Virus record (IMG/VR): IMGVR_UViG_3300032236_001530 | Span: 62,001-126,000 of that record | Reading direction: 5' to 3' (one strand) | Source: a virus | Length of the DNA stretch: 64,000 nucleotides | In this document: in pieces, positions 12,504 through 64,000 of the stretch | Layout: every line of letters starts with the position of its first letter | How positions within the stretch are numbered: the first letter of the stretch is position 1 | Notes under the pieces: generated by a model | The model's database searches: none | What the model was told of the DNA's origin: nothing | What the model saw: the letters and a program-made list of their open reading frames with translations, nothing else | Position numbers and translations under genes: made by a program

Positions 12504-13505
12504 TTATAAATATTTAATTGAATTACTATAGCCGGTTAGTCCAACTTTGTTATACCCAGCCGAACCAACTTTATGAGCCATAAATCCACCAGAATCTAAT
12601 TCCAAATCTTTAACTATTTCATCAACAAAGAACTTAGGATCTTTACCTTCTTCATAGTATTTTGATATCTCATCTTCGTATTCATCAATTAAATGATTAA
12701 GTACAACAGGTCTTATATTATATTGTTCAAGTGAAGATATTATCTGATTTGTGTATTCTTGTATATCATTATATGATTCGTTTGTTGGGTAGACATTTCT
12801 ATTAAGAATAATATGAATATTTATATTTATATTTCTTGGTTCATTCCAAGGTTGACCTGACCCAGCTACTAAAAAAGTTATTGTTAAAAAACCGGATGTG
12901 TATTCTAAGTGATTAATTAATTTATGACAAGCATCTTCAGCGACTTCAACTATTTCTGACTCATATGCTTCTAAATCACCACCTGGTCTAAGAGTTGATA
13001 TGTGTTTTTGATAAACTTCATTCTTGTCAAAATTATATCTTAAATTAAGATTTCCTCTCCAAGTTTTTTCAACTTGTTTGAATAATGATATTCTCATTTC
13101 TTGAGATTTGAAATTACCAACATTATCATCATCAATATCATATTCTTCATCTGAACTATCAACTTTATATTCATTGATTTCAAATTCCATATCATACAAT
13201 TCTTGTAAGCACTCTTCTACTAAATTAGCTTCTTCATCATCTAATTTGGATTCTTCTACTTTAGTAATACCTTTAGCTGGTGCTAAAAATCTCATATCAG
13301 AAACTTCGTTTGGTTTACCTTTCTTAATTTTTTTACCCTTTTTATCAAATAAATAAAATGTTATATCACCTGATCCAGATGTTCCGGCTTGACCGGCAAA
13401 TGCACCTGGTTGAGCATTTGATACGGCTCCCATACCAGCAGTTGTTGCGGTAGCGGTAGCAGTACCATCTTCTAAAAATGCTTTATATCTTTTAAGGTGT
13501 TTCAT
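12504..13505 (-). CDS. Capsid-targeted (CTS) protein, 333 aa
   Basis: The N-terminus MKHLKRYKAFLEDG matches the recurring capsid-targeting-like motif with a cleavage-type F-L-E. A low-complexity Ala/Thr/Gly stretch follows (about residues 13-45), then a mixed alpha/beta region rich in acidic residues. No catalytic motif is recognised. A TTAATATATA box lies 5 nt upstream of the start. The likely role is an internal head protein, processed by the prohead protease during maturation; this rests on the N-terminal motif alone. Confidence 0.6.
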   Translation of the reverse strand: MKHLKRYKAFLEDGTATATATTAGMGAVSNAQPGAFAGQAGTSGSGDITFYLFDKKGKKIKKGKPNEVSDMRFLAPAKGITKVEESKLDDEEANLVEECLQELYDMEFEINEYKVDSSDEEYDIDDDNVGNFKSQEMRISLFKQVEKTWRGNLNLRYNFDKNEVYQKHISTLRPGGDLEAYESEIVEVAEDACHKLINHLEYTSGFLTITFLVAGSGQPWNEPRNININIHIILNRNVYPTNESYNDIQEYTNQIISSLEQYNIRPVVLNHLIDEYEDEISKYYEEGKDPKFFVDEIVKDLELDSGGFMAHKVGSAGYNKVGLTGYSNSIKYL

Positions 13506-13510
13506 TAGAT

Positions 13511-13520
13511 TATATATTAA
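13511..13520 (-). promoter_or_regulatory. Late-type box TTAATATATA, 5 nt from start
   Basis: On the minus strand TTAATATATA ends 5 nt before the ATG at 13505. The spacing would make the transcript nearly leaderless. Confidence 0.6.
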
Positions 13521-13765
13521 TATCCATCAACTAAAATATCTTCAGATTCTGTTGATTTACATTTAGGACAAGTTGGTTCACCATCTTCTTTCATGAAGTA
13601 ATATTCAACACCACAATTTAAACATCTATGTGGATAAGCTACCTTTTGAGGAATTGGTTCTGTTTTTGGATCTCTTGGTATTTCAGGATTGTTAAAAGCC
13701 CATGAAGAGCCTGCCCAAGAAGTTTGGAAATCATCACCCTCGTTGAATCTTTTTAGATATTTCAT
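13517..13765 (-). CDS. Capsid-targeted small zinc-ribbon protein
   Basis: 82 residues. The N-terminus MKYLKRFNEGDD carries the capsid-targeting-like motif ending F-N-E. The second half contains two C-x2-C pairs (CLNCGVEYY and CPKCKS) separated by about 18 residues, a rubredoxin-like zinc ribbon. It may bind nucleic acid inside the head or act in the cell after injection. Its late-type box is 4 nt upstream. The box of the following gene lies within the 3' end of this one. Confidence 0.65.
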   Translation of the reverse strand: MKYLKRFNEGDDFQTSWAGSSWAFNNPEIPRDPKTEPIPQKVAYPHRCLNCGVEYYFMKEDGEPTCPKCKSTESEDILVDGY

Positions 13766-13769
13766 AGGG

Positions 13770-13779
13770 TATATATTAA
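13770..13779 (-). promoter_or_regulatory. Late-type box TTAATATATA, 4 nt from start
   Basis: On the minus strand TTAATATATA ends 4 nt before the ATG at 13765. It lies just downstream of the terminator-like hairpin of the candidate RNA. Confidence 0.6.
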
Positions 13780-14047
13780 AACAAGAAAGACTGGTTTAGA
13801 ATCGTGTGAATCGAATCTTAGCCAGTCTTTTTTCTTGTGAAGTTCAGAAGTTCACATCTTCGTTCTTTCGTGTCATACACCTTTTAATTCGACCGTATCG
13901 ATATGACTGATACTAAGTCTACTGCGGGACCAACAGATTTATCATCCCCTAACCTCGGCAAAGTTTAGTCCGTTATTTGTCTGGATTGCCGTCCGTGACT
14001 TATTACGGAATATTTGTTGTTTTTGGTTTCGATATCATTACAATATC
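13775..14047 (-). ncRNA. Candidate structured non-coding RNA
   Basis: The interval between coding genes has no open frame of note and is visibly less AT-rich than its surroundings. On the minus strand it begins about 7 nt after a good host-type promoter. It ends in a hairpin (GACTGG 13789-13794 with CCAGTC 13822-13827, 13 of 16 positions paired) followed by TTTCTTGTTTT. Internal pairings include CCGT/ACGG, CGGCAA/TTGCCG, GACT/AGTC and GTGAA/TTCAC. I checked for tRNA, tmRNA, RNase P and 6S hallmarks and see none. Ends are approximate. Confidence 0.6.
13789..13827 (-). terminator. Terminator-like hairpin at the end of the candidate RNA
   Basis: A 16-bp imperfect stem (13 pairs) with a 7-nt loop is followed on the minus strand by TTTCTTGTTTT. 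The + strand side also has a T-tract, so it may act in both directions. Confidence 0.6.
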
Positions 14048-14053
14048 TTATTA

Positions 14054-14084
14054 CAAAGATACAACAAATATCTAAAACAACAAA
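14054..14084 (-). promoter_or_regulatory. Host-type promoter for the candidate RNA
   Basis: The minus strand reads TTTG (14084-14081), 19 nt, TATCTTTG (14061-14054). No coding gene follows for almost 290 nt, so the product is likely the structured RNA. Confidence 0.65.
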
Positions 14085-14336
14085 TTATTTTATAGATTTT
14101 TTAATTATTTCTGATTTCGCTTTAATATCATCAATTGAAACACCGATTAGTAAAAGTATTACAACTATAATAAATGATATACCAACTAAGCTTATTGCTA
14201 TTGCGAATGGTATCCAAAGAGGTGAAGTTACCCACAACCAAGACCAACTAATATTATTTGTTAGTTTAAGAACTAAGAAAACTATGAAAAGAACTGCTGA
14301 TAAACTCAGACCTGTTCCTGAATTTTTTGATGCCAT
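14085..14336 (-). CDS. Small two-helix membrane protein
   Basis: 83 residues with two hydrophobic helices at about 12-28 and 41-67, separated by NNISWSWLWVTSPLWIPF, and a Lys-rich cytoplasmic tail. The aromatic W-S-W-x-W-V-x-S-P-L-W motif is typical of small phage membrane proteins labelled transmembrane fragile-X-F-like. Function unknown. It follows another membrane protein gene 15 nt away on the same strand. Confidence 0.6.
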   Translation of the reverse strand: MASKNSGTGLSLSAVLFIVFLVLKLTNNISWSWLWVTSPLWIPFAIAISLVGISFIIVVILLLIGVSIDDIKAKSEIIKKSIK

Positions 14337-14351
14337 ATTATTATAAATATT

Positions 14352-14972
14352 TTAGTTTATACCAATTTTATTAAGTAAAGTTTCACGCCTTTGGGTTTTT
14401 GTTTGATATTTAGGACATCTATAAAGTTCTCTAAACCCTGATATTCTTAACTCAGTACATATACCATAATTTCTTGGCACTTGCCTATCTCTTTTTTCTA
14501 TTAATCTACCAAGTGCAAAGTAATAATAAATACCATTTTTTTCTTCACAATAAATTAGTGTTTCGAATGCGCTTTTCCAAGCATCTTCTAATTCCCAACC
14601 CATATCATCGTCATTCATACCAATAAGTGTTGCTATAACAACAAATATCAAGCATACACCAAATCCTATCCATAGTAAAACATTAGCATCAGAATAAGAA
14701 CTAATATAAATTTTACCATCTTTTACTGGCATTTCTTTAGAATCCCAAATATTCTCGTACTTTATTTGGGCTTCCGACAAGGTTCTACAAATATAGATGT
14801 AATTATTATCAATTTTTACTTGACCGACAACATTATAACTATCAACCGAGTTGGGTACGGTACCCGCTTTAAGAAAGAATACTATAGTGGCTATGAGGAA
14901 TAGTATCTTTACAACATTAGTTTTAATAACTTCCAATAAGAAAACAAGAGCAAACTTTAAATACTTTATCAT
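14352..14972 (-). CDS. Membrane protein, 206 aa
   Basis: 206 residues with hydrophobic segments at about 15-36 and 98-116 and a soluble region between them. A soluble C-terminal half has five cysteines and basic residues. The topology suggests a periplasmic loop of about 60 residues and a cytoplasmic tail. No known family is recognised. It pairs with the small membrane protein gene downstream. Confidence 0.55.
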   Translation of the reverse strand: MIKYLKFALVFLLEVIKTNVVKILFLIATIVFFLKAGTVPNSVDSYNVVGQVKIDNNYIYICRTLSEAQIKYENIWDSKEMPVKDGKIYISSYSDANVLLWIGFGVCLIFVVIATLIGMNDDDMGWELEDAWKSAFETLIYCEEKNGIYYYFALGRLIEKRDRQVPRNYGICTELRISGFRELYRCPKYQTKTQRRETLLNKIGIN

Positions 14973-14990
14973 TTTACAAATATAGAAAAA

Positions 14991-14998
14991 AATATATA
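14991..14998 (+). promoter_or_regulatory. Late-type box AATATATA, 4 nt from start
   Basis: AATATATA ends 4 nt before ATG 15003; the two preceding bases are AA instead of TT. Weaker match to the late-type consensus. Confidence 0.4.
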
Positions 14999-15002
14999 AA
15001 CT

Positions 15003-15185
15003 ATGGAAAATATTTTAACATTTGAATCATTTATTAATGAATCTTATAATAAACCAAGAGCTGGTGGTAAAAAACGTTGGTCTGTAAAATATAAAAAGTC
15101 AATTGACTGCTCACACCCCGCGGGTTTTAGCCAAAAGCAATATTGTAAGAGAAAACGTAAAGGTGGTGCTTATAAATCTAATTAA
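15003..15185 (+). CDS. Short basic capsid-targeted protein
   Basis: 60 residues. The N-terminal part ILTFESFINES is one of the cleanest copies of the capsid-targeting-like motif, with I-N-E as a likely prohead protease site. The remaining 45 residues are strongly basic and contain SIDCSHPAGFSQKQYC, a Cys/Pro/Gly pattern I associate with small phage proteins. A basic peptide packaged with DNA is plausible. The stop overlaps the end of the convergent rpiB gene by 4 nt. Confidence 0.7.
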   Translation: MENILTFESFINESYNKPRAGGKKRWSVKYKKSIDCSHPAGFSQKQYCKRKRKGGAYKSN

Positions 15186-15619
15186 GACTTCAATGGAATT
15201 TTAGCAATTCTACCTGAGTGTCTACCACCTTCAAATCCAGTATTTAAGAACTCTTCAACACATTTGAAAGCTTCTTCATCTGAAATATATCTACCTGGCA
15301 TTGATAAGATATTAGCATTATTATGTAATCGGGCCATATTAGCGATTTCTGAACTCCAACAAAGAGCAGCACGAACACCAGACCATTTATTAGCAGTCAT
15401 AGTAATTCCGTTTCCAGAACCACACATTAAGATACCAAATTCACAATTATTATTTTGAACATCTTCAGCAACAGAATGTGCAAAGTCAGGATAATCACAT
15501 CTTTCTTCAGAGTAACATCCATAATCTTTTAATTCTATTCCTTGTTTTTTGGAAAGATATTGTTTAACTTTTTCTTTAAGTTCAAATGCTGCGTGATCAC
15601 AACCAATAGATATTTTCAT
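15182..15619 (-). CDS. rpiB: Ribose-5-phosphate isomerase B (RpiB/LacAB family)
   Basis: 145 residues, the usual length for RpiB. It interconverts ribulose 5-phosphate and ribose 5-phosphate, the sugar precursor of nucleotides. Diagnostic features are GCDHAAFELK at the N-terminus, the catalytic cysteine in MCGSGNGI, HNNANILSMPGR in the middle and GGRHSGRIAKI near the end. All expected catalytic and phosphate-binding positions appear present. Together with adenylosuccinate synthetase at 20.2 kb it would support purine nucleotide supply in the infected cell. Confidence 0.9.
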   Translation of the reverse strand: MKISIGCDHAAFELKEKVKQYLSKKQGIELKDYGCYSEERCDYPDFAHSVAEDVQNNNCEFGILMCGSGNGITMTANKWSGVRAALCWSSEIANMARLHNNANILSMPGRYISDEEAFKCVEEFLNTGFEGGRHSGRIAKIPLKS

Positions 15620-15645
15620 AAAATTAATATTTTATGAGTTATATA

Positions 15646-16350
15646 CTATTTTGAATATTTGGTTGTATTAAAGAACTCTTTGTAGGTAACAATTTTATTA
15701 CCACCTTGGATAGCATCAACTTCTTCTTTTTCATCATCATCCATTATCATCATTTTAAGATCGGTACCTTTTTCAATTGGTGCTTCATATTCAAAGCTAT
15801 CAAGGTCTTTATCCATAAATGTATAATCTTTTGGTGATGTTTCAAAACCAAAGCTGTTAAAGAAGTTAACTATATTTTGTAATGATTCGTCAGAGAAACC
15901 AAAATAAGTTTCACCATCATATAAAGAACCTTTACCTGTATAGTGTATAACTTCTACTTTATTAGGATAATCAATAGTGAAGTGGTAAACCATAGCATCA
16001 CCATATGTTAATTCAACATTTAATCTAAGTTTATCAGCTGGATTTGCGTGAGCACCATCATTATCTTTAACAATAGTAACGTCAAATTCTAATTGATCTG
16101 GTTCACCGTCAGCTAAAACGTCACCACCTTCTGAATCTACGGTGTTATGTGCATAAGTAATTTGAATACAATTCATCAAATTAGCAACATCAATTGAGTG
16201 ATTAGTACCTGGGCTTAAACCTGGTTTTCTTTCAACTTCAAATTCACCATTCTCGGTGATAATTGTCAATGTTTCTGGTAAAAACTTTGACCAATCTACT
16301 TCAAATATACTGGTAGATTCGCTTTCGTTAAACTTTTTTAAATATCTCAT
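15646..16350 (-). CDS. Capsid-targeted protein, 234 aa
   Basis: MRYLKKFNESES carries the capsid-targeting-like motif with F-N-E. The rest is acidic, with several predicted beta strands (LTIITENGEFEVERK, LNVELTYGDAMVYHFTID), and ends in VTYKEFFNTTKYSK, which faintly echoes the same motif. No enzyme motif is seen. A TAAATATATA box ends 4 nt before the start. Probably an internal virion protein; the claim depends on the N-terminus. Confidence 0.55.
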   Translation of the reverse strand: MRYLKKFNESESTSIFEVDWSKFLPETLTIITENGEFEVERKPGLSPGTNHSIDVANLMNCIQITYAHNTVDSEGGDVLADGEPDQLEFDVTIVKDNDGAHANPADKLRLNVELTYGDAMVYHFTIDYPNKVEVIHYTGKGSLYDGETYFGFSDESLQNIVNFFNSFGFETSPKDYTFMDKDLDSFEYEAPIEKGTDLKMMIMDDDEKEEVDAIQGGNKIVTYKEFFNTTKYSK

Positions 16351-16354
16351 AAAC

Positions 16355-16364: not shown

Positions 16365-16382
16365 TTTTAAAATTTACTTTTT

Positions 16383-16979
16383 TTATTTATCATTACTAAG
16401 TCCTATCATAAGTGACTTGATTTTAAAATCACCAGGTAAGCTAAGTAATTCATCTATAGTGAATTGTTGTCTCATAAATGTTGAACCATCTACCGTATCT
16501 TTAATTACATATAAAAAGTCTAAATTCCAAAAATCTAAAGCAAATGAAATGAATCTATTAATCTCATCTTCTATTTGAGACCAAGTAAATTCACCAGCAC
16601 TTTGATATCTATAATCTAACCAAGATGTTGATGAACCATCATCTGAAACAGGTCTTTGTGGTAACCAAACTCTAACATGAAAATTATCTCTTGCTGGTCT
16701 ACCAGCAACTTGAGTACTTCCTACTTCAACTTTGAAACCATCATCTTTTAAGTGTGCTAAATAATCTTCCACATTATTTTTTAAATCATCATAAGAAGCA
16801 GATTCTTTTACAATCCTAAATTTAAGAAGTGGTTTATCATTTATAGTAATATCACCTTTATCATTCTTACCAATTTTCTTAACAACAACTTTTTTATTCT
16901 TAAAACGACCACCCAATACCGTATCACCAACTTTAATAGGTATTTTAATCATTTCATTAAATGTTTTTAAATATATCAT
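16383..16979 (-). CDS. Capsid-targeted protein, 198 aa
   Basis: MIYLKTFNEM matches the capsid-targeting-like motif with F-N-E. After it comes a small SH3-like stretch (KVGDTVLGGRFKNKKVVVKKI), then a mixed region with several Trp and Asp residues. Function unknown. Its start overlaps the end of the GH108 gene by 4 nt, so the two form a coupled pair under the late-type box at 18074-18083. Confidence 0.55.
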   Translation of the reverse strand: MIYLKTFNEMIKIPIKVGDTVLGGRFKNKKVVVKKIGKNDKGDITINDKPLLKFRIVKESASYDDLKNNVEDYLAHLKDDGFKVEVGSTQVAGRPARDNFHVRVWLPQRPVSDDGSSTSWLDYRYQSAGEFTWSQIEDEINRFISFALDFWNLDFLYVIKDTVDGSTFMRQQFTIDELLSLPGDFKIKSLMIGLSNDK

Positions 16980-18067
16980 ACGCTAGAAGTTGGTGATGTT
17001 GATGTAGGTACATAACTAAAAGAACCTAATCTGTTTAGCCAACCTTCACCATGTCTGTCAAATGTTTGTGAATCTCTATATCTCTCTTCTCTATACTTTT
17101 TAATAGAGTTGAACAATTTTTCTTGGTCAACACCATTTGCTTTATCTAAAACATCTTTAGAAAAAATGTTATCTGAATCACTTATTTCAACACCATTTTC
17201 TTCTAAAGCTGATCTTAAAACACTTCTCATTCCATCGATACCTTGGTTTACACAACCATCATAGATAACATTGGCAACACTTTGATCTGAAATCTCACTT
17301 AAATTCTGAGCATCCCAGTAGTTCATTTTGTATATTTTTAGAGCTGTTTGATATGAAAGATTCATCATATCTTTTTTAGTAAGAAGTCGAGTTATTCCTT
17401 TTTCATTAAAATACTTTGCTAAAATACGAGCCGATATACCATGATTTGTACCAATAAATCTTTTTTTACCGCCCGGTATATCAATATAATTACCTCTATC
17501 ACCTTTATCATCTGAATATCCAGCCTCTGCTAACTTAACAAGTTTTTGAGCTTCCTTAAATGAAGATTTTTTATGTTCGTGTTTTATATTATCTTTATTT
17601 AATTGAACTATCTCTTCAGTTTGGTTTTGACTTAAACCACCTTTAAATATTTGATTATTTGCACCAGCTGATGGTGTGATTAGATAACTAAGACTTACAA
17701 ATGTTAAGAAGACTCCTGTAATACCAACTATTAATTTTTTTCTTAAAGATGATGGTAGATTTTTAATCTTATTCATTATCTTAATAAAGTATTCTTTAAT
17801 CTTTTCTTTAGGTAGATTTTGTAAAAACTTTTCTAATTTACTTTTAATAGTATTAGAGTCGCTATTTACAATCCATTCAAATGTAACTGGCTTTTCGTCA
17901 CTATATTTTGGTGTTTCTTTTTTAGGTTGATCGTTATAATCCCAAGTCATCGTATTTGGACCTGTCCATTTACCTTCTACTTCCTCAACAATTCTAAAAA
18001 TATCATCTATTATAGAATTAAATTGTTTTTCTAAAAGAAAGTCATTATATTTGCTAATCTTATTCAT
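16976..18067 (-). CDS. Capsid-targeted GH108-type muramidase with transmembrane segment
   Basis: 363 residues. MNKISKYNDFLLEKQ carries the capsid-targeting-like motif (L-L-E). A single hydrophobic helix lies at about 113-132. The C-terminal half fits glycoside hydrolase family 108 plus its peptidoglycan-binding end: the likely catalytic Glu is in KLAEAGYSDD (about residue 182), followed by NHGISARILAKYF, ALKIYKMNYWD, VANVIYDGCVNQG and a final HGEGWLNRLGSF. It should cleave the glycan backbone of peptidoglycan. An N-terminal head-targeting sequence on a muramidase is unusual and suggests delivery with the DNA. Membrane topology and activity are inferred. Confidence 0.75.
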   Translation of the reverse strand: MNKISKYNDFLLEKQFNSIIDDIFRIVEEVEGKWTGPNTMTWDYNDQPKKETPKYSDEKPVTFEWIVNSDSNTIKSKLEKFLQNLPKEKIKEYFIKIMNKIKNLPSSLRKKLIVGITGVFLTFVSLSYLITPSAGANNQIFKGGLSQNQTEEIVQLNKDNIKHEHKKSSFKEAQKLVKLAEAGYSDDKGDRGNYIDIPGGKKRFIGTNHGISARILAKYFNEKGITRLLTKKDMMNLSYQTALKIYKMNYWDAQNLSEISDQSVANVIYDGCVNQGIDGMRSVLRSALEENGVEISDSDNIFSKDVLDKANGVDQEKLFNSIKKYREERYRDSQTFDRHGEGWLNRLGSFSYVPTSTSPTSSV

Positions 18068-18073: not shown

Positions 18074-18083
18074 TATATATTAA
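18074..18083 (-). promoter_or_regulatory. Late-type box TTAATATATA, 6 nt from start
   Basis: The minus-strand TTAATATATA ends 6 nt before ATG 18067. The ATG of the divergent + strand gene begins at 18084, directly against it. Confidence 0.6.
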
Positions 18084-31396: not shown

Positions 31397-31772
31397 TTTG
31401 TCAGATATACCTTTTGTTCATTCCGGTAGTTATCGAGACGAGTGTAGAGTAAAAGGTAATAAACTACTAACTGAGCTTAATAGAATAAATATTAATATGT
31501 CAACTAAACATAATTATATAATCATACCGGTTAGTATTTATAATCTTTTAGAGATAAATGATAGTTTTATATCTTTAGAAAAGTCCGCTAATACATATGA
31601 TGGTCCAATTAAAGTTGGCTTGATTGGTGAGTTTATTTGCTATTTAGATATACATTTACCGCCAAATGAAATTATTGTTTCTTGGGATAGACAAACATCA
31701 AGAAATGTTAAATTAGATTCTATATTAAATGATACATTTGAAAAAGAAAAAAGAATTAAGGTTATATCTTAA
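31386..31772 (+). CDS. Hypothetical protein, 128 aa
   Basis: 128 residues, mixed alpha/beta (NYIIIPVSIYNLLEI, EFICYLDIHLPPNEIIVSW). It is coupled to the gene upstream by an 11-nt overlap. The last codons form one arm of a terminator hairpin and the stop overlaps the convergent DHH gene by 4 nt. Not recognised. Confidence 0.5.
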   Translation: MVIDLSDIPFVHSGSYRDECRVKGNKLLTELNRININMSTKHNYIIIPVSIYNLLEINDSFISLEKSANTYDGPIKVGLIGEFICYLDIHLPPNEIIVSWDRQTSRNVKLDSILNDTFEKEKRIKVIS

Positions 31773-31780
31773 TTCTTTTT
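31748..31780. terminator. Bidirectional terminator inside overlapping 3' ends
   Basis: AAAAAGAATTAAG (31748-31760) pairs with CTTAATTCTTTTT (31768-31780). Both convergent genes stop within the hairpin. Confidence 0.75.
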
Positions 31781-33623: not shown

Positions 33624-34037
33624 TTATTTTATATAATTTTGATCTGTTTTTCTATATATTAATATATTCAAGTGTTTATTTTCAATGTATTCTTTATGTA
33701 TATAATAACCTAAATCATCTAATCTTAGTGATGCAACTTCCATTATTTCTTTATACTCTTCAGAGTTTTTCAAATTGGTAAGTTCATTATTTATTTTCCA
33801 AAGACTCTCTTGAAAAGGTCCCCAGTTTTTACCAATACTAATTTGAATGTAAGTAATTAAAGCAAATTTTAATGCTGATTCATCGGTGTTTTTAAAATCA
33901 AATAGTTTTTTTAAAAATCTAACATCAACTATCCAACCGTTATCTGATATATCAGTGAATAAAAATTCAATATCTTCAGGTGTTAACTTAGATTCAGGTG
34001 ATAGATGTATATTTTCAAACTTTTTTAAGTATTTCAT
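33624..34037 (-). CDS. Capsid-targeted small protein, 137 aa
   Basis: MKYLKKFENIH matches the family start, with K-F-E in place of F-N-E. The remainder is helical, with no recognised motif. It sits between the amidoligase-like and DHH genes; the overlap of 1 nt upstream and gap of 1 nt downstream show all three belong to one operon under the box at 35438-35447. Confidence 0.55.
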   Translation of the reverse strand: MKYLKKFENIHLSPESKLTPEDIEFLFTDISDNGWIVDVRFLKKLFDFKNTDESALKFALITYIQISIGKNWGPFQESLWKINNELTNLKNSEEYKEIMEVASLRLDDLGYYIHKEYIENKHLNILIYRKTDQNYIK

Positions 34038-35932: not shown

Positions 35933-35942
35933 TTAATATATA
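35933..35942 (+). promoter_or_regulatory. Late-type box TTAATATATA, 20 nt from start
   Basis: TTAATATATA ends 20 nt before ATG 35963 and heads the baseplate gene cluster. Confidence 0.6.
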
Positions 35943-42097: not shown

Positions 42098-42107
42098 TTA
42101 ATATATA
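42098..42107 (+). promoter_or_regulatory. Late-type box TTAATATATA, 23 nt from start
   Basis: TTAATATATA ends 23 nt before ATG 42131 of the hub gene. Confidence 0.6.
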
Positions 42108-49390: not shown

Positions 49391-49400
49391 TTAATATATA
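49391..49400 (+). promoter_or_regulatory. Late-type box TTAATATATA, 5 nt from start
   Basis: TTAATATATA ends 5 nt before ATG 49406. Confidence 0.6.
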
Positions 49401-49405: not shown

Positions 49406-50098
49406 ATGAAACACTTAAAGAATTTTCAATTATTTGAATCTAAAAAAGAAGAGCCTTCTAAAAAGTCTCAAGAAATGATCGATGCTTTTAAGAAAAAGTA
49501 TGGTACTGAATTAGATGAAAAATTTGATGTTGACCAAATAAAATTGATTGAAAGTGCTTTTGAATTTTTTGATAAAAAGTTTATCAAAAATAAAATTGAA
49601 AAAATAATACTTGATGACTTGGGTGGTGTTCATGGTAGATGGTCGGAAACAAAGACTAAAAAACAAATGACACTTAATCCTTCTATATTCAAATTCAAAA
49701 AAGAGTTTGAGAATGGTTCTAAAGATATCCCTTATAAAGAGTTTGTTATTGTTCATGAGATAGGTCATTGTGTTGACCATGTTGAAAGAGTTTCTTATTC
49801 TAAAACATGGCAAGCTATCTCTGGTTGGAAAAGACTAGATAGAGATAAACCCGTTCCAGAAGGATATGTTAGATATGTGGAAGAAAGAAAAGGTAGAGAA
49901 ATAGCTGGTCCTAAAAAATCAAACTGGATTCATAAAAAAGATGCTTTTTTCTGTAGAAAATATACTTCTAGAAATCCAAGAGAAGATTTTGCGGATTGTT
50001 TTGCGTTTGGTGTGTTTGGTGATTGGGATAGATTCAAAGGTGAAGGTGGTGAAAAGAAAATGGCTATTATTAAAGCCACATTAAAGAAAGTAGATTAA
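49406..50098 (+). CDS. Capsid-targeted zinc metallopeptidase
   Basis: 230 residues. MKHLKNFQLFESKK is a capsid-targeting-like start with L-F-E. The zincin motif HEIGHCVDH (HExxHxxxH-like) lies near residue 114, and NPREDFADCFAFGVFG follows, as in proteins where a Glu/Asp in a second helix completes the site. The protein should be an active zinc peptidase. Its packaging signal suggests delivery into the host at infection, like T4 Alt, although the target protein is unknown. The stop overlaps the convergent neighbour by 4 nt. Confidence 0.75.
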   Translation: MKHLKNFQLFESKKEEPSKKSQEMIDAFKKKYGTELDEKFDVDQIKLIESAFEFFDKKFIKNKIEKIILDDLGGVHGRWSETKTKKQMTLNPSIFKFKKEFENGSKDIPYKEFVIVHEIGHCVDHVERVSYSKTWQAISGWKRLDRDKPVPEGYVRYVEERKGREIAGPKKSNWIHKKDAFFCRKYTSRNPREDFADCFAFGVFGDWDRFKGEGGEKKMAIIKATLKKVD

Positions 50099-50745
50099 TC
50101 TAAATCAGCGGCTTGAACCGTATCTTTATTGTAAATATAGATTATAATATTAGATATCTTTTCACCTTCTAATAAATCCAATAAATCATCAATATCTGTT
50201 GAAGTCTTTGTTAATGATATAGTTTCTGTTTCTCTCATTTCTTTAGATTTTGTTACTTTCATAGTAAACTCAGCATCTAACATTTTTAATTTACCCTGAA
50301 CATCTAATAAATCCTCAACTATTTCTTCATTTGTGTTATATTTAATACTAACTATATCGACAACAAAAGCACCAAAGTCAAAGTTACCAGAATCTTCAAC
50401 GTCATCTGTTCTATCTAACAAAGGTTGGATACAATCCATTATATCTCTATAATCAACATTTATATTAAAAGCTTGTAGGAATGATTCTTGAGAACCGTCG
50501 TGTATTTCATATTGGAAATAATCTTTATAATCTTCTTCTACTTGGTCAATAAATTGGTCAAGAAGTGATTTTGTTTTACTCGTAAAAACACCATTACCTG
50601 GTCCTTGAACATTTGATTGTAGATTAGATTCAATATGATCTATTAAAGGTTTGAATATCTCTTCCCAATCAACCGGATTTGTAAGTGGGCTCATTTCACG
50701 AGTTTCACTTTTAGTTTCTAATATAAGTTTAGAGAATTTTTTCAT
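50095..50745 (-). CDS. Capsid-targeted protein, 216 aa
   Basis: MKKFSKLILETKSE matches the capsid-targeting-like motif (I-L-E). The rest is acidic and mainly helical with two beta strands near the end (EFTMKVTKSKEM, ISNIIIYIYNKD). No catalytic motif. A box lies 5 nt upstream on the minus strand. Probably an internal head protein. Confidence 0.55.
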   Translation of the reverse strand: MKKFSKLILETKSETREMSPLTNPVDWEEIFKPLIDHIESNLQSNVQGPGNGVFTSKTKSLLDQFIDQVEEDYKDYFQYEIHDGSQESFLQAFNINVDYRDIMDCIQPLLDRTDDVEDSGNFDFGAFVVDIVSIKYNTNEEIVEDLLDVQGKLKMLDAEFTMKVTKSKEMRETETISLTKTSTDIDDLLDLLEGEKISNIIIYIYNKDTVQAADLD

Positions 50746-50750: not shown

Positions 50751-50760
50751 TATATATTAA
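50751..50760 (-). promoter_or_regulatory. Late-type box TTAATATATA, 5 nt from start
   Basis: On the minus strand TTAATATATA ends 5 nt before ATG 50745. Confidence 0.6.
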
Positions 50761-52320: not shown

Positions 52321-53370
52321 ATGGTTAAAAAATTCAATCAATATATTTCAGAAAGTAATTCTGATTACTTGCTATACTATGCCTTTGACTGGGATGATAA
52401 TATACTTTATATGCCTACTGTAATCCACATGGAAAGAAAAGAAGGTAATGAGTGGGTACCAGAAGATGTTTCTACTTCTAAATTTGCAGAAGTTAGAAAT
52501 GACAAAGAAAATTATAGACTAACAAATGACGCTTTCTCTGACTTTAGAGACACGGGTCCAAAAGGTGGTTCTATCTTTTTAGAAGATGCTAAAAAGGCAA
52601 TATCCGCTGGTAAGTTTGGTCCAGCTTGGCATGATTTTATTGAATGTTTATCAAATGGTTCTTTATTTGCTATCATAACAGCTCGTGGTCATGAGTCTGA
52701 AACTATGAGAAAAGGAGTAGAGTGGATAATAGATAATATTCTAACAGAAGAACAAGTTTATAGTATGTATAATCATCTTATGATGTATGCTTATCATTTT
52801 TCTCAGGATAGAGGAGAATCTCAAGAAAGAGTTTTAGTTGGTAAACCATCTGAAAATAAATTGGTTAAAGAATATTTAGACAATTGTGATTTTATTGGGG
52901 TGTCAGCACCTTCAAGAGGTGGTTCGCCTGCAAATCCGGAAAAGTCTAAAGAAGAAGCTCTTCTTACATTTCAACATAAAATTGATGAATTTGCTGCAAA
53001 AAGAGGTCTTAAAGCAAAAATTGGTTTCTCTGATGATGACTTAAAGAATGTTAAGCACATTGAAGATTTATATGCTAACCTATCAAAAGAAAGATTTCCA
53101 AATATTACTGAGTTTATAGTAAAAGGAACTAAGGATCCTAAAAATATTACTAAAACTATCAGAACTATGGAATCATCTGAACAAACTCCTGGTTTGGAAT
53201 CATCAGTTCTTAAATTCACAGAATTTGGAAATATGACAGGTCAATTATACCCACAAGGCCCTGACCAAAGACAAGATGATTTTGCTAATCAATTCAAAAG
53301 ACAAACTAAATATCTAACTAAAACATCAAAGGAAATTTTAGGTGATAAAAAACGTAAAAAAAAAGATTAA
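52321..53370 (+). CDS. Capsid-targeted HAD-superfamily protein
   Basis: 349 residues. MVKKFNQYISESN is a clear capsid-targeting-like start with I-S-E. HAD motifs follow: AFDWDDNILYMP (motif I), FAIITARGHESE (motif II) and IGFSDDDLKNV (late acidic motif). The enzyme may be a phosphatase. A long helical region and a basic tail (KKRKKKD) follow. As a packaged enzyme it may act at entry or inside the head; no substrate is suggested by the sequence. A terminator follows. Confidence 0.7.
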   Translation: MVKKFNQYISESNSDYLLYYAFDWDDNILYMPTVIHMERKEGNEWVPEDVSTSKFAEVRNDKENYRLTNDAFSDFRDTGPKGGSIFLEDAKKAISAGKFGPAWHDFIECLSNGSLFAIITARGHESETMRKGVEWIIDNILTEEQVYSMYNHLMMYAYHFSQDRGESQERVLVGKPSENKLVKEYLDNCDFIGVSAPSRGGSPANPEKSKEEALLTFQHKIDEFAAKRGLKAKIGFSDDDLKNVKHIEDLYANLSKERFPNITEFIVKGTKDPKNITKTIRTMESSEQTPGLESSVLKFTEFGNMTGQLYPQGPDQRQDDFANQFKRQTKYLTKTSKEILGDKKRKKKD

Positions 53371-55453: not shown

Positions 55454-55463
55454 TTAATATATA
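55454..55463 (+). promoter_or_regulatory. Late-type box TTAATATATA, 6 nt from start
   Basis: TTAATATATA ends 6 nt before ATG 55470; divergent to the box at 55434-55443. Confidence 0.6.
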
Positions 55464-55469: not shown

Positions 55470-57332
55470 ATGAAATTTTTATCAAGCTACTTAGATTTTA
55501 TTTTTGAGGCGGTCACTAAACAAGAAATGAGACTTTATTTCTCAGATGAGTTTAGAGATATGTTGAGAAGATTTCAAGATAAATCAAGTATTGCACAAGC
55601 TTTATTAAGCTCAGAAGATTCTAATCAAATGACTGATGTCTATACTCTAATAGATATCACTGAAAAGAATGATACAATTTCATTAATACAAGTAAATAGA
55701 ATAACCAGAGCCAATCCCGAATTAGGCGAAACATTACCATATAACATTCGTAATAAGAAAAGAGGAAGTGAATTTTGGACTAAAGCAAGAACTGAAATAG
55801 GTATTGGTAGATGGGTTAGAAGAATATTTACCGAAGTTCATAAATCAACTATACTGGATTCTAAAATTGAAGAGTTTGTTAATTTATACAAGGCGGCCTT
55901 TGATGGTGGTGATGTATCAAGGTTTGAATTGGTTAGTGGAGAGGATATTAGAAAATGGTATTATGAGAATAATTATGAGGAAAAAAGAGGTCAATTAGGA
56001 AACTCTTGTATGAGGTACTTTAGTTGTCAAAGTTATTTTGATATTTATGTTAAAAATCCTGAAGTTTGTAAATTACTTATTTTAAAATCTGAAAGTGAAC
56101 CAAATAAAATTACAGGTAGAGCTTTGGTATGGAAGTTAATAGATGGATCTTATTATATGGATAGAATCTATACTATAAATGATTCTGATAGATTTCTATT
56201 TAAAGACTATGCAAAGAAAAACAATATTGAGAACTTACACGAAGATAAATTTGATATCACTGTTCAATTAGGGGATCATACATACACTAAATATCCATAT
56301 ATGGATACCTTTGTTGTTTATAATCCAAAAACTAAAATTTTAAAAGATGATGAGGATTTATGGCCTAATAATGGTTATATTAAACTACAAAGCACGAATG
56401 GTGGATTTTCCTCTGATGATGTTGTTTATTCAGAATGGCATGGTGAATATATCAATAGACAAAATGCGGTTTATTGTAGTAATGTCGAGGATTGGTTAGA
56501 CAGAGATGAAGCAAAATATTTAGAATATAAAGATATATGGGTAGCACCAAATGATGATGTTGTTTACTCAGAATACCACTCAGAGTATTTCCTTATGGAT
56601 GATACTGTTTATTCTGATTTAATGAATGATACACTATATCCAGATAGTAAAGATGTTATAGATATACAAATTAATTCAGATGGTGATACAGATTGGGGTG
56701 TTAAATCAAGAACCGATCTTTATATAATAGGATGGGTAGATGAAAGACCTAGATATTACCTAAGAGAAAACTATATTAAAAATCCTTTTACTGGTGAATA
56801 TCATTTCAAAGATGAAGATATAGATGGTGTTAAATTTAGTAATTATTTAGATAAAAAAATAGCTGAGAAATTAGATATTGTATTAGATGATAAAAACACT
56901 GATAGAAATGGTAAACCACATGATTCATTGGTTCAAAAAGTAAGAGTAGAATTAAAAAATCTAATGAAAGATTTTGAAATCACAGACAATATAAAAGAAG
57001 CTATTGATAACAATAATATTTGGAATAATAGTGTTAGAAATGTTTTTTGGGGATTACATAAAGATAATATGCCAACTGAAGAAGATATGTTTTTGGTAAT
57101 TAAAGCTTATCCAACAATCTATCCTATGTCTAATCCATATGTACAATTTATGAGTTTAACTTGGAATAAACTTATGACAACAATAATTGAAGACTTTTCA
57201 GGAAGTGAAAAGAAGTTCAATATATTTAAATCAGAAGGTATATTAAGAAATATGACTAAAGCCGCTTATATCTTTGACTATTCTTTATTTCCTGAAGAAA
57301 TTTATCTTAGATACTTATTTATCACTATCTAA
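55470..57332 (+). CDS. Capsid-targeted large protein, 620 aa
   Basis: I start at ATG 55470 instead of GTG 55464 because the motif MKFLSSYLDFIFEA then begins at the start and the box spacing is standard. I-F-E is the likely cleavage site. The remaining 600 residues are unassigned. They include LGNSCMRYFSCQSYFDIY and repeated short phrases DDVVYSEWHGEYINR and DDVVYSEYHSEYFLM, a small internal repeat of about 20 residues. Trp, Tyr and Asp are common. It may be a large internal protein injected with the DNA. Confidence 0.6.
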   Translation: MKFLSSYLDFIFEAVTKQEMRLYFSDEFRDMLRRFQDKSSIAQALLSSEDSNQMTDVYTLIDITEKNDTISLIQVNRITRANPELGETLPYNIRNKKRGSEFWTKARTEIGIGRWVRRIFTEVHKSTILDSKIEEFVNLYKAAFDGGDVSRFELVSGEDIRKWYYENNYEEKRGQLGNSCMRYFSCQSYFDIYVKNPEVCKLLILKSESEPNKITGRALVWKLIDGSYYMDRIYTINDSDRFLFKDYAKKNNIENLHEDKFDITVQLGDHTYTKYPYMDTFVVYNPKTKILKDDEDLWPNNGYIKLQSTNGGFSSDDVVYSEWHGEYINRQNAVYCSNVEDWLDRDEAKYLEYKDIWVAPNDDVVYSEYHSEYFLMDDTVYSDLMNDTLYPDSKDVIDIQINSDGDTDWGVKSRTDLYIIGWVDERPRYYLRENYIKNPFTGEYHFKDEDIDGVKFSNYLDKKIAEKLDIVLDDKNTDRNGKPHDSLVQKVRVELKNLMKDFEITDNIKEAIDNNNIWNNSVRNVFWGLHKDNMPTEEDMFLVIKAYPTIYPMSNPYVQFMSLTWNKLMTTIIEDFSGSEKKFNIFKSEGILRNMTKAAYIFDYSLFPEEIYLRYLFITI

Positions 57333-60845: not shown

Positions 60846-60851
60846 ATTATA

Positions 60852-60861
60852 TATATATTAA
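60852..60861 (-). promoter_or_regulatory. Late-type box TTAATATATA, 6 nt from start
   Basis: On the minus strand TTAATATATA ends 6 nt upstream of ATG 60845 of the broken HNH gene. Confidence 0.5.
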
Positions 60862-60879
60862 AAAGTGTCCTCCACCTTT

Positions 60880-61353: not shown

Positions 61354-61399
61354 AATTTCTTCACGATTTATATATTGAAAAATACCACTTTCCTAAAAA

Positions 61400-61407
61400 G
61401 ATATATA
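61400..61407 (+). promoter_or_regulatory. Late-type box GATATATA, 24 nt from start
   Basis: GATATATA lies 24 nt upstream of ATG 61432, with the leader ending TTAATCACTATG as at 29412. Confidence 0.45.
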
Positions 61408-61431
61408 AATTATAAAAAATAATTAATCACT

Positions 61432-61818: not shown

Positions 61819-61840
61819 TTATAATATTATTTAAAATTAA

Positions 61841-61868
61841 AAAAACCACTCAAATTGAGTGGTTTTTT
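61841..61868. terminator. Bidirectional terminator with CCACTCA hairpin
   Basis: AACCACTCAA pairs with TTGAGTGGTT, flanked by A and T tracts, between convergent genes ending at 61818 and 61870. Confidence 0.9.
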
Positions 61869-61869
61869 A

Positions 61870-62349
61870 TTATTTACCGAATTTCTTTAGTCTTGTATGT
61901 CTGTAACTTTTAGACTCAAACTTTTCTTCTTCCTCTTCACTATTCATCATCTCTTCTTCATTATCCATCTCGTTTTCTTCAACTTCATGATGACTGTGTG
62001 TATGTTCAGGTGTTGTTGATTTCTCTAAATAGTTAACAACTTCTTCAGCTGTTTTAAATTTCTTATTATCAACGTGAAAGCTTTCAGTTTCTGAGAAGAA
62101 GTTAATAGTCTTACCATCGTGTTCAATCTTATTATCTATAACTTCAGTACCAAGCATTTCTGCTAACTCAGCCATTTTCTTTTGACCTTCGTATTCACCA
62201 CCTTCTTCTTCAGGAAGTTCTGATTCTTCCATTTCAGTGTTATCCATTTCTGTTTCATGCATATCCATTTCTGGTGCTTCAACTTCATGTTCCATTTCGA
62301 AGTCCTCATTTACTTTACCTTTTACAAAGTCTGTATATCTTTTAATCAT
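61870..62349 (-). CDS. Acidic capsid-targeted protein (core-like)
   Basis: 159 residues. MIKRYTDFVKGKVNEDFE has the basic/aromatic start and a V-N-E site. The rest is Glu/Met/Asp-rich (EMDMHETEMDNTEMEESE), with a short folded centre (TVIDNKIEHDGKTINFFSE-like region) and a His-rich turn (HTHSHHEVEE). The end is basic (RHTRLKKFGK). Acidic proteins with targeting sequences form prohead cores in T4 relatives, so a scaffold or internal protein role is likely. Confidence 0.55.
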   Translation of the reverse strand: MIKRYTDFVKGKVNEDFEMEHEVEAPEMDMHETEMDNTEMEESELPEEEGGEYEGQKKMAELAEMLGTEVIDNKIEHDGKTINFFSETESFHVDNKKFKTAEEVVNYLEKSTTPEHTHSHHEVEENEMDNEEEMMNSEEEEEKFESKSYRHTRLKKFGK

Positions 62350-62383
62350 AATAATAATATTATTTTTTGTATATTATAGATAG

Positions 62384-62393
62384 TATATATTAA
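62384..62393 (-). promoter_or_regulatory. Late-type box TTAATATATA, 34 nt from start
   Basis: On the minus strand TTAATATATA lies 34 nt upstream of ATG 62349, next to the end of the gene upstream. Confidence 0.45.
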
Positions 62394-62394
62394 A

Positions 62395-62907
62395 TTATAA
62401 ATCTTTATTTTTTTCACTTTCTAATTCACCTACAACATAATCTAAAAATGAATCTAATTCATATTCCAGGCCATTACAAAACTCAAACACATCATATGAT
62501 TCTTCATTTGGTTTTTTAGACACTGAATAAAAATCTGGTGATATTTGATTACTATTAAAAACAACTATTCTACCCTCTAATCTACCTTCAATTCTTTTAC
62601 CACTTGGGAATACTAAGTCTGGTACATACAAAGTGCCTATATAATGCACCTCATCACCATAATCTTCTGTTTCGGTGTGTTCAAATTTGAAATATCCATT
62701 ATCATCTTCAAATACTCTCTCACTTTCATCAACAATCATCTTATTATGAACTTCTTCTTGATTTCCTGACTTATGCGCATTTAGAAAATCTCTTTCATCA
62801 TCTCGCAATGAAGACATTCCATATTTAGATATTTTATCCAATATGTCATCTACTCTTTGTTGAGCTGTATATCCTTCATATCTCATTAGATGTTTCATAA
62901 TAATCAT
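62395..62907 (-). CDS. Capsid-targeted-like protein, 170 aa
   Basis: Two in-frame ATGs exist, 62907 and 62898; the second gives MKHLMRYEGYTAQQ, closer to the family start. A soluble acidic protein follows, with a strand FDVCEFCNG-like end and EGRLEGRIVVFNS. No enzyme motif is recognised. A TGAATATATA box ends 5 nt upstream of ATG 62907. Confidence 0.5.
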   Translation of the reverse strand: MIIMKHLMRYEGYTAQQRVDDILDKISKYGMSSLRDDERDFLNAHKSGNQEEVHNKMIVDESERVFEDDNGYFKFEHTETEDYGDEVHYIGTLYVPDLVFPSGKRIEGRLEGRIVVFNSNQISPDFYSVSKKPNEESYDVFEFCNGLEYELDSFLDYVVGELESEKNKDL

Positions 62908-62912
62908 TGATG

Positions 62913-62922
62913 TATATATTCA
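62913..62922 (-). promoter_or_regulatory. Late-type box TGAATATATA, 5 nt from start
   Basis: On the minus strand TGAATATATA ends 5 nt before ATG 62907; one mismatch. Confidence 0.45.
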
Positions 62923-62926
62923 ATAA

Positions 62927-63355
62927 TCAATCATCACTTTTTCTAACCTCAATTTTCCAAGCTCCTCCTGATTTTACAACTCTATTGTCATTATATTCTG
63001 TTAATTGTAAATATGGTGCTGTCGGTTTGTAATTATTTATAACTTTCTCTCTAATAGCTTGATATAATATGTCTATGCCAATTCCATCAGCTTGGTAAAT
63101 ACATATGTAATTATTATCTATATCTTCCCAGTCAAAATCAGAATATTCTGTGTTATTGATAACTGATTTTATTTTATTATCTCTATTATATTTTTGTACT
63201 TCTTTTATCCAACTATCCATAAAACAATAAATGAACCCATCGGATCCATCTTTACTATGTTTAATTAAAATATCAAAGTCAACACCGTCGTAAAAACGAA
63301 TGCTTACTCCTTTTTGTTCTACTTCCTCAATCAAGGTCATCAAATATATCATCAA
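62927..63355 (-). CDS. Hypothetical protein, 142 aa
   Basis: 142 residues, soluble and acidic with aromatic clusters (IRFYDGVDFDILIKH, FIYCFMDSWIKEVQ). It has no targeting motif. It stops with TGA and its start overlaps the end of the next minus gene by 29 nt. Not recognised. Confidence 0.5.
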   Translation of the reverse strand: MMIYLMTLIEEVEQKGVSIRFYDGVDFDILIKHSKDGSDGFIYCFMDSWIKEVQKYNRDNKIKSVINNTEYSDFDWEDIDNNYICIYQADGIGIDILYQAIREKVINNYKPTAPYLQLTEYNDNRVVKSGGAWKIEVRKSDD

Positions 63356-63557
63356 TTTTTTTGTCTCTTACTTCAGACTTATGCAATTCTATGACTTTTT
63401 TATGAAAAAGTTCATCATTTTCAAATCTGTACTTGAAGTCTTCAAATGAACTACTGCTCATTTTTAATAATGCAAGAGATCCTTTTGATATTTTACTCTC
63501 ATTTAATCTATCATTTAAGTAGTCTATGTAATAAGGATATATTTCATCATTTTTCAT
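63327..63557 (-). CDS. Hypothetical protein, 76 aa
   Basis: 76 residues, polar and helical (DEIYPYYIDYLNDRLNESK), ending DDIFDDLD. A GATATATA box lies 4 nt upstream of the ATG on the minus strand. It overlaps the following gene by 29 nt, so they are co-expressed. Not recognised. Confidence 0.5.
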   Translation of the reverse strand: MKNDEIYPYYIDYLNDRLNESKISKGSLALLKMSSSSFEDFKYRFENDELFHKKVIELHKSEVRDKKIDDIFDDLD

Positions 63558-63574
63558 AATTTATATATCTACTT

Positions 63575-63584
63575 TTAATATATA
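63575..63584 (+). promoter_or_regulatory. Late-type box TTAATATATA, 5 nt from start
   Basis: TTAATATATA ends 5 nt before ATG 63590. Confidence 0.6.
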
Positions 63585-63589
63585 CCATT

Positions 63590-64000
63590 ATGATTAAAAA
63601 ATACTCAAGTTATATTAATGAATCTGATGACCAAAGAGTTTATTTAGATGACAACCAAAAAGGCCCAGGCTTTTATACCAATAAATATGGTCCTAATTCT
63701 ATTGCTAATTTGAATCAGAAGATTTATAACTATATTCATCAAGTATATGGTCCTTTAGGATTTTCTTATCCTCGTAAAGGTACTGTAGCTAATTATGATG
63801 TAACTGTAAATGGTGAGTTAATAAGTGGTGAGTATATATCTAAAATGGTTAATAACTACACTATATTCAAAACATTTATTAGAGAGAATAAAATCAAAGA
63901 TGAAAATACATTTTATACCCTTTTAGAATCTAAATTTGATGATGTTTATCACTATAATGGTAGTTTCTTCAAAAGACAGACTTTACCTATTTTAATAAAC
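63590..64000 (+). CDS. Capsid-targeted protein (partial, runs off the right edge)
   Basis: The first 137 codons are visible. MIKKYSSYINESDDQ is a textbook copy of the targeting-like motif with I-N-E. After it come VYLDDNQKGPGFYTNKYG and YNYIHQVYGPLGFSYPRKGT. The domain is not recognised. A box sits 5 nt upstream and the gene is divergent from the 63557 gene. Confidence 0.6.
   Translation, partial: MIKKYSSYINESDDQRVYLDDNQKGPGFYTNKYGPNSIANLNQKIYNYIHQVYGPLGFSYPRKGTVANYDVTVNGELISGEYISKMVNNYTIFKTFIRENKIKDENTFYTLLESKFDDVYHYNGSFFKRQTLPILIN

Follow-up and report, generated by a model that had tools for sequence, protein, structure and literature searches.

We analyzed a 64,000-nucleotide stretch of viral DNA (the window), corresponding to bases 62001-126000 of the 155,228-base virus record IMGVR_UViG_3300032236_001530 (G000, 30% GC), in which a preliminary description had listed about sixteen genes encoding otherwise unrelated proteins with a similar N-terminus. 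This shared N-terminus is very probably a capsid-targeting sequence (CTS) of the phage T4 type, i.e. a propeptide that, by analogy with T4, would be cut by a prohead protease after the glutamate of a hydrophobic-x-Glu (h-x-E) site. The comparison with T4, already made in that description, is borne out by a window-trained matrix that also retrieves IPII and IPIII, two internal proteins of T4, by the agreement of the conserved positions with those of T4, by the presence of portal, gp23, and gp21-type protease genes in the related phage LR745206, and by the recurrence of the end of the tag, h-x-E-[SN], where protease and scaffold join and ahead of the mature arm in the capsid protein. The tag set is not special to the window, as the whole record and its relatives have it.

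The relatives were identified through a 636-residue protein of no named family (35963-37873), which is 47% identical over 80% to a protein of LR745206 (634,780 bases) and has homologues in LR756502 (642 kb, 44% identity), LR756504 (636 kb, 31%), and LR756501/3 (735 kb, 30%). Excerpts of Al-Shayeb et al. 2020 (PMC7162821) give 634, 636, 642, and 735 kb for the four largest complete genomes, and assign genomes above 634 kb to the Mahaphage clade, with predicted Bacteroidetes hosts. We infer that G000 is a fragment of a phage related to these 634-735-kb Mahaphages. The gene sets come from our own selection of open reading frames (ORFs), and starts and counts are approximate. We sampled the first 400 kb of LR756502 and of LR756501, the first 160 kb of LR756504, 150 kb of Lak-A1, 100 kb of LR756500, and 50 kb each of T4 and phi38:1.

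All listed ORFs are present in the window with the N-termini quoted for them. The h-x-E site, which had been ascribed to the set as a whole, is found in 13 of the 16; there is none in the starts of 33624-34037 and 62395-62907, and 34037-35431 has Gln for Glu, as had been remarked. We scored N-termini with a matrix trained on 15 window N-termini only, at thresholds of 8 and 6; the logos and site positions of the carriers are biased, because the matrix takes in P2 and P1' (P1 being the Glu of h-x-E) and looks for Glu at residues 7-16 only. In leave-one-out scoring, 11 of the 15 reach at least 6, against 3 of 292 internal Met positions. A loose regular expression of the originally described pattern matches 42 of 223 genes of the record at their first start, where 6.3 (internal Met) or 10.7 (shuffled) are expected. 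At threshold 8, the matrix selects 11 of 144 genes in the held-out flanks of the record (1.6 expected), 91 of 967 in LR745206 (5.1 expected; 12 with reversed N-termini), 69 of 594 in LR756502 (4.7 expected), 40 of 566 in LR756501 (2.3 expected), 12 of 318 in LR756504 (1.8 expected), and 6 of 314 in the cultured Tenacibaculum phage PTm1 (1.0 expected); it matches none of 84 in the phi38:1 control. The tag set, which a motif search of the whole genome had been predicted to recover, is larger than first described, extending to the flanks and the relatives. After subtraction of the null at threshold 6, we estimate about 29 carriers in the 155-kb record (33 minus 3.7) and about 110 in LR745206 (127 minus 17.6). 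In a scan for Glu at all positions in G000 and LR745206, training genes included, the matches lie at Glu 7-18 (87 of 1132, namely 71 of 619 and then 16 of 513), with 0-5 matches in each later six-residue bin. In 80 head loci from IMG/VR, the window matrix selects 123 of 1590 N-termini (32.8 expected).

In the T4 stretch (64-114 kb, which does not include Alt), the matrix picks 2 of 64 ORFs, and these are IPII and IPIII, both starting with MKTYQEFIAEA. According to a review of T4 head assembly (PMC9026906), ten residues of IPIII suffice for packaging, mutagenesis assigns targeting for the most part to residues 4 and 7, with processing depending on residues 8 and 10, and Asp at residue 10 stops processing while targeting is kept. 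The conserved positions of the tag are these same residues: within the N-terminal 10-19 residues, aromatics stand at the positions of Y4 and F7, followed by [IL]-x-E. The core pattern derived from the four mutagenized positions, [FYW]xx[FYW][ILV]xE (R1), occurs at N-termini 26 times in LR745206 (3.6 expected), 9 in G000 (0.5), 20 in LR756502 (2.4), 30 in LR756501 (2.4), and 8 in LR756504 (1.3). When the first five R1 positions are present, P1 is Glu in 26 of 65 N-termini of LR745206, 9 of 23 of G000, 20 of 42 of LR756502, and 30 of 55 of LR756501, compared to 12%, 7%, 12%, and 13%, respectively, in the same context inside proteins. The five R1 matches in the T4 stretch are the two internal proteins, one site inside gp6, one inside gp20, and residue 65 of gp23 (FGSFLTE), which is the end of the gp23 propeptide, given as 65 residues long in an excerpt of the SPN3US paper (PMC5694885). 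The exact T4 spacing is seen in 6 of the 16 listed N-termini; others show a short variant, and three of the 16 are without h-x-E. The short class, [YFHI]-[LI]-[KR]-x-[FYI]-x-E, counts 42 members in LR745206, 24 in LR756502, and 9 in G000, and one each in LR756501 and LR756504.

Behind the tag, the proteins are unrelated, as the preliminary description had stated, with nearly as many families (single linkage, blastp 1e-8) as carriers: 85 for 91 in LR745206, 26 for 26 in G000, 68 for 69 in LR756502, and 38 for 40 in LR756501. The tag is also removable, as 15 families hold a tag-free homologue whose alignment begins behind the tag. In a Nudix pair, one member starts with MRYLKTYNES followed by LEKRITCGIYLF, whereas the tag-free one starts with MMKISCGIYLF. 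A further protein, whose gene follows downstream of that for the capsid protein, carries the tag in certain contigs and lacks it in others (55-61% identity). Unrelated mature parts behind a detachable N-terminus are features of a CTS. Domains over the cut-off in carriers of the record are Glycosyl hydrolase 108, polyphosphate kinase 2 (tag score 13.2), Nudix (12.9), and pterin-4a-carbinolamine dehydratase (8.1), and a DUF5824 protein, also over the domain cut-off, has a tag score of 7.8, just under threshold 8. Carriers of LR745206 include, likewise over the cut-offs, RNA ligase, poly(A)-polymerase head, SMODS-associated Nudix, cyclase catalytic, NFACT RNA-binding, and 2'-5' RNA-ligase/RNase_T domains; the names HAD-like and M20-like refer to motifs recognized by eye only. 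A protein acting against the cyclic-oligonucleotide-based antiphage signaling system (CBASS) is not claimed, the Acb1 match of one carrier scoring 23.1 against a cut-off of 27. Directly downstream of the LR745206 capsid gene (L011 13509-13895, plus strand) lies a gene for a CTS-tagged NFACT-R protein, which by its name is of the ribosome quality-control type. Of the proteins compared, 58 belong to this family; 56 of these come from IMG/VR head loci, and 31 have a tag score of at least 6.

A gp21-type protease is encoded in LR745206, LR756502, LR756501, LR756504, and PTm1. His72 and Ser128, which we take to be the catalytic residues of T4 gp21, are invariant in the six aligned sequences (T4 gp21 and five relatives), and the domain ends in an equally invariant Glu-Ser pair, which reads (L/I)-N-E-S in the megaphages. 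A tblastn search with the protease reached 692 phage records; among the 18 annotated matches listed, 15 are named head-maturation-protease, prohead or prehead, and 3 are hypothetical. A phmmer search of the domain against the PDB gave chance matches only (best E 0.099). The protease and the scaffold form one polypeptide in four megaphages; the scaffold part has 14-residue units in tandem (for example YSEYIAENLDKNIA), in which Y-x-x-Y-[ILV]-A-E is the same core as that of the tag. The four complete megaphage scaffolds contain 11, 11, 14, and 11 R1 copies, and 51 distinct IMG/VR scaffolds contain 10-12; at least five repeats are found in 75 proteins of the 80 IMG/VR loci, a uniformity biased to close kin, since these loci are the best 80 of 309 relatives. 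The repeat region forms one continuous predicted helix (residues 235-449) in a model that is poor overall (predicted local distance difference test, pLDDT, 49.9) and covers the scaffold without the protease part. In the capsid proteins of the four megaphages, the predicted propeptide ends in [IM]-[NH]-E before Asn, followed by a GMGxV arm, and this site has no aromatic at P4, as if cutting did not need it. Within the first 90 residues, GMGxV occurs in eight genes of the eight gene sets, four for capsid proteins and four for others. In one of the latter, 12504-13505 of the window, the arm follows the Glu of the tag, just as it follows the predicted capsid site. The four non-capsid arms, GMGxV...AQP...GSGD behind h-x-E, are encoded at 12504-13505 of the window (minus strand), L007 3267-3521 (plus), L018 19285-19785 (minus), and LR756502 80294-80539; such proteins might attach to the shell or act as competitors for capsid contacts.

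In Lak-A1, the protease is 44% identical and the scaffold has no R1 copy; R1 tags number 0 in the stretch sampled (0.6 expected), which shows no clear tag set. LR756500 has degenerate scaffold repeats with 2 R1 copies, and one R1 tag (0.7 expected). Among the sampled genomes, which represent few independent lineages, large tag sets thus accompany regular repeat scaffolds. In PTm1, R1 is at background at N-termini (2 vs 0.95 expected), arguing against a clear arsenal in this phage despite its matrix matches. Elsewhere, a few proteins may still be tagged. As separate observations, the PTm1 protease-scaffold (L041 11779-13548, plus strand) shows by eye a different repeat, W[IL]..FT..L[SC]EG.E, and two Lak-A1 proteins (L268 1480-2496, minus; 14241-15290, plus) start alike, with MNKNIKKLLESLFDD and MNKQIKQLLENLFDD, possibly a different head tag of Lak phages.

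Many carrier genes are preceded by a common element, TTAATATATA. Among genes with at least 25 free bases upstream, TAATATAT lies within 60 bases of the start in 29 of 38 carriers of LR745206 vs 67 of 380 other genes (p 2e-13), in 11 of 15 vs 20 of 97 in G000, in 20 of 32 vs 54 of 221 in LR756502, and in 3 of 9 vs 4 of 124 in LR756504. TTAATATATA outnumbers its reversed control in G000 (39/8), LR745206 (133/28), LR756502 (148/33), LR756501 (135/21), and LR756504 (71/32), and does not in PTm1 (4 vs 7), Lak-A1 (59 vs 53), and LR756500 (18 vs 26). The element stands before the portal and protease-scaffold genes of LR745206, in a variant form before its capsid gene, and in G000 before a weakly tail-like gene; a possible role as a late promoter is a guess of ours. 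Few structural proteins of this phage received a name from PHROGs. The element also precedes the gene for the 636-residue protein used above, for which tail sheath was considered. PHROGs and Pfam give no support to this name, which was dropped because the PTm1 homologue is annotated as hypothetical and another PTm1 gene is the annotated sheath.

If T4 is a guide, the tagged proteins would be made together with the virion proteins, and the two aromatics of the tag would dock on the helical core that the scaffold forms in the assembling prohead. The carriers would be enclosed with this core, then cut after h-x-E by the gp21-type protease, and in their mature form would remain beside the DNA in the head and accompany it into the next host. 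The resemblance between the tag and the scaffold repeat suggests that the carriers join the core as extra scaffold units. The tag would then be a detached scaffold repeat unit, each carrier adding one more to a long helix of 10-12 docking-plus-cutting units, and one protease would digest the scaffold and release about 100 different proteins within the head, so that a large proteome of RNA repair, nucleotide, cell-wall, and possibly anti-defence enzymes would be injected. We put this extension at slightly under an even chance, because a matrix built from the scaffold repeats only gives a modest N-terminal excess.

This modest excess (at threshold 6, 7 vs 2.0 expected in LR745206, 5 vs 0.3 in G000, 5 vs 0.9 in LR756502, 9 vs 2.6 in LR756501, 3 vs 1.8 in LR756504, and 4 vs 1.3 in PTm1) is one of several observations which weigh against a T4-type CTS. 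Four of the 15 window members (33624, 49406, 61870, and 62395) fail leave-one-out, and the matrix misses T4 IPI, whose [IL]-x-E is at residue 19. The 155-kb record gives no match at E <= 1 to the T4 portal, gp23, and S77 protease families; the prohead protease gene, which a whole-genome search had been expected to yield, was not found in the record by the S77 search. The head module of G000 is either outside the fragment or too diverged, and a prohead protease is presumed for this phage from those of its relatives. In three megaphage proteases, Pfam PF03420 (S77) scores 18.3-22.9 bits, below the cut-off of 27, while the PTm1 homologue reaches 44.2 bits. R1 is below expectation at N-termini in the 80 IMG/VR head loci (29 vs 46.3), because the scaffold repeats fill the internal null. 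Small matrix excesses also occur in Lak-A1 (3 of 199 at threshold 8, 0.9 expected; 9 at threshold 6, 2.4 expected) and LR756500 (4 of 133 at 8, 0.3 expected; 10 at 6, 1.3 expected). Finally, LR756501 shows no significant enrichment of TAATATAT (6 of 15 vs 42 of 195, p 0.11), and the upstream element is also found before helicase and primase genes.

The motif could mark protease substrates only, to be activated or trimmed, with head entry mediated by other parts of the proteins. The h-x-E is indeed the part common to the protease junction and the capsid sites, and 35 of 75 distinct members of the family of the 55470 protein have at least two h-x-E sites in residues 5-32. Nevertheless, the aromatic pair maps on the T4 targeting residues, and LR745206 carriers picked by the cut half of the motif have an aromatic or His at positions 3 and 7 in 54% and 56% of cases, compared to 16% and 19% of other proteins. 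The predicted site of the capsid proteins themselves is also without a P4 aromatic. We consider this explanation unlikely.

It is very unlikely that the tag instead directs proteins to a different phage structure (for instance a replication compartment) or serves in chaperoning or degradation, given that the core of the tag is that of the prohead scaffold repeats, that its end is that of the protease/scaffold junction and the capsid sites, and that the matrix recovers T4 internal proteins. This alternative draws on the fact that any kind of sorting may use short N-terminal tags on unrelated proteins, and on the lack of a known function for most carriers: 99 carriers match 21 Pfam families, whereas 99 length-matched non-carriers match 65, including tRNA synthetases, thymidylate synthase, and a gyrase subunit, and also Nudix and RNA ligase.

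The peptide might also be a passenger of recently copied DNA, with recombination or gene conversion shuffling the 5' ends of genes. Carriers do lie next to each other more often than chance predicts (22 pairs vs 8.5 expected) and have the upstream element in common, and in the long class identical tag residues show a slight excess of same-codon use (0.609 vs 0.556 predicted from codon usage). The agreement is, however, little above the prediction both here and in the other comparison (0.583 vs 0.563), which indicates that the peptide is selected rather than recently copied as DNA, and the tag is kept within one family down to about 30% identity, making such an origin highly improbable. A compositional artefact of AT-rich gene starts, which favor Lys, Asn, Ile, and Phe, has a negligible probability and is refuted for the whole set by the shuffled, reversed, and internal-Met nulls, by the phi38:1 control, and by the background level of R1 in PTm1 and Lak-A1, even if single weak members may be due to chance.

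A T4-type CTS in these phages shares with that of IPI, IPII, IPIII, and Alt, described by Black and colleagues, a short propeptide, an aromatic pair, an aliphatic-x-Glu, a gp21-type protease, and unrelated mature parts. T4, however, has only a handful of carriers, its internal proteins being small and basic, whereas the numbers estimated here are far larger and several carriers have enzyme domains; moreover, LR745206, LR756502, and G000 frequently have the short variant MKYLKxFNES, and the scaffold consists of CTS-like repeats. As in T4 gp21/gp22, a gp21-type protease accompanies a scaffold with multiple h-x-E sites, but protease and scaffold are here one protein in the relatives, with regular repeats along one predicted helix. 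In phiKZ and SPN3US, a prohead protease also processes many head and inner-body proteins, several of which are ejected; the propeptides there often exceed 100 residues, according to an excerpt (PMC5694885), whereas the sites predicted here fall within the first 18 residues with T4-like spacing, the motif concentrating at Glu 7-18. Polyvalent proteins likewise carry enzyme domains into the host, ART and GNAT among them in the excerpt consulted (PMC7824862), but combine many domains in one large polypeptide, unlike the single proteins with a common tag described here.

CTS propeptides have been proposed, in an excerpt of PMC9026906, as a means for T4-like phages to vary their cargo. A search by title or abstract, with most subscription literature outside its reach, found no report of CTS in Mahaphages; as far as this search shows, what is new lies in the scale, in enzymes as cargo, in a protease-scaffold fusion built of tag-like repeats, and in the occurrence in the clade of the largest known phages. 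Should the T4-type reading hold, a ten-residue rule would place about a tenth of the genes of the largest phages into one class of packaged and injected proteins, which could be read from sequence in related metagenomes and would show where to seek the early-acting enzymes of uncultured giant phages. It would offer a testable answer to what the T4-type CTS binds, namely a scaffold helix, as well as a set of short natural tags with which proteins could be loaded into phage heads. The cell may thus receive a large protein toolkit from the largest phages known.

Table 1. Candidate CTS carriers and copies of the upstream element in the window (window coordinates; N-termini are written up to the predicted cut, followed by the next residues)
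Feature	Positions	Strand	Remarks
CTS carrier, MKHLKRYKAFLE then DGTATATATTAGMGAVSNAQPG	12504-13505	-	arm GMGAVxxAQPxxxAG...GSGD behind the tag, as in the LR745206 major capsid protein
CTS carrier, MKYLKRFNE then GD	13517-13765	-	82 residues; weak zinc-ribbon match (23.4 bits, cut-off 26)
CTS carrier, MENILTFESFINE then SY	15003-15185	+	60 residues; T4 spacing, R1 core
CTS carrier, MRYLKKFNE then SES	15646-16350	-	234 residues; no Pfam match
CTS carrier, MIYLKTFNE then M	16383-16979	-	198 residues; no Pfam match
CTS carrier, MNKISKYNDFLLE then KQ	16976-18067	-	R1; Glycosyl hydrolase 108 domain at 180-276, over cut-off
CTS carrier, MIKKYQNFLNE then EV	31769-33622	-	R1; weak DHH match below cut-off
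Weak member, MKYLKKFENIH	33624-34037	-	short-class start, no h-x-E there (KKFENI)
MKKYSDKFLNQS, Gln for Glu	34037-35431	-	possible uncut variant
CTS carrier, MKHLKNFQLFE then SKK	49406-50098	+	230 residues; weak in leave-one-out
CTS carrier, MKKFSKLILE then TK	50095-50745	-	216 residues
CTS carrier, MVKKFNQYISE then SN	52321-53370	+	R1; tag-free family member in LR756504 (MKNYLIYDWDDN)
CTS carrier, MKFLSSYLDFIFE then AV	55470-57332	+	R1; 620 residues; multi-copy family; weak GNAT-like match at 148-315
MIKRYTDFVKGKVNE then DF	61870-62349	-	atypical spacing; fails leave-one-out
MKHLMRYEGYT (start 62898)	62395-62907	-	short-class start, no h-x-E; fails leave-one-out; DUF6576 domain
CTS carrier, MIKKYSSYINE then SD	63590-64000	+	R1; 259 residues, gene passes the window end
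TTAATATATA element, upstream of 13505 start	13511-13520	-	
TTAATATATA before another carrier	13770-13779	-	
TTAATATATA before another carrier	18074-18083	-	
TTAATATATA before another carrier	33653-33662	-	
TTAATATATA before another carrier	49391-49400	+	
TTAATATATA before another carrier	50751-50760	-	
TTAATATATA before another carrier	55454-55463	+	
TTAATATATA before another carrier	62384-62393	-	
TTAATATATA before another carrier	63575-63584	+	
TTAATATATA upstream of 42131-44377	42098-42107	+	gene for 748 residues, weak PHROG tail-protein match
TTAATATATA before 35963-37873	35933-35942	+	gene for 636 residues

Several of the individual members are conserved in the relatives. Homologues of 31769-33622 keep the tag, as MISKYNQFINEEV in LR745206 and MLRKYGQFINEEV in LR756502, and those of 61870-62349 in the same two phages (35% and 42% identity, respectively) start alike. 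The suggestion that the Gln copy, 34037-35431, may be uncut fits the data: the homologues in LR756502 (73% identity) and LR745206 (75%) also have Gln (FLNQ, FLSQ), which points to an old, kept variant and not to a mutation, and the T4 Asp substitution that blocks processing and not targeting is at the same position.

The family of the 55470 protein occupies 7-15 places per megaphage and has 105 relatives in IMG/VR, where 49 of 83 ORFs score at least 8 compared to 29 of 306 other long ORFs of the same loci, part of the family being untagged. The model of the 55470 protein has a pLDDT of 85.7, with residues 1-6 and 13-18 under 50, and most of the tag is of low confidence (blocks 1-20 at pLDDT 44-50) and outside the fold. 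For residues ~148-315, Foldseek (best E 0.013) and VIA-align (Z up to 8.1, a level that can mean a common arrangement only) give a GNAT-like match, and the GNAT reading of this family is accordingly a weak one, based on a predicted model. The family shows invariant S-C and nearly invariant D-R-x-Y-T motifs, with CxxCxG repeats in some C-termini, and has a relative in Cellulophaga phage phi38:1, a hypothetical protein (gp037 region).

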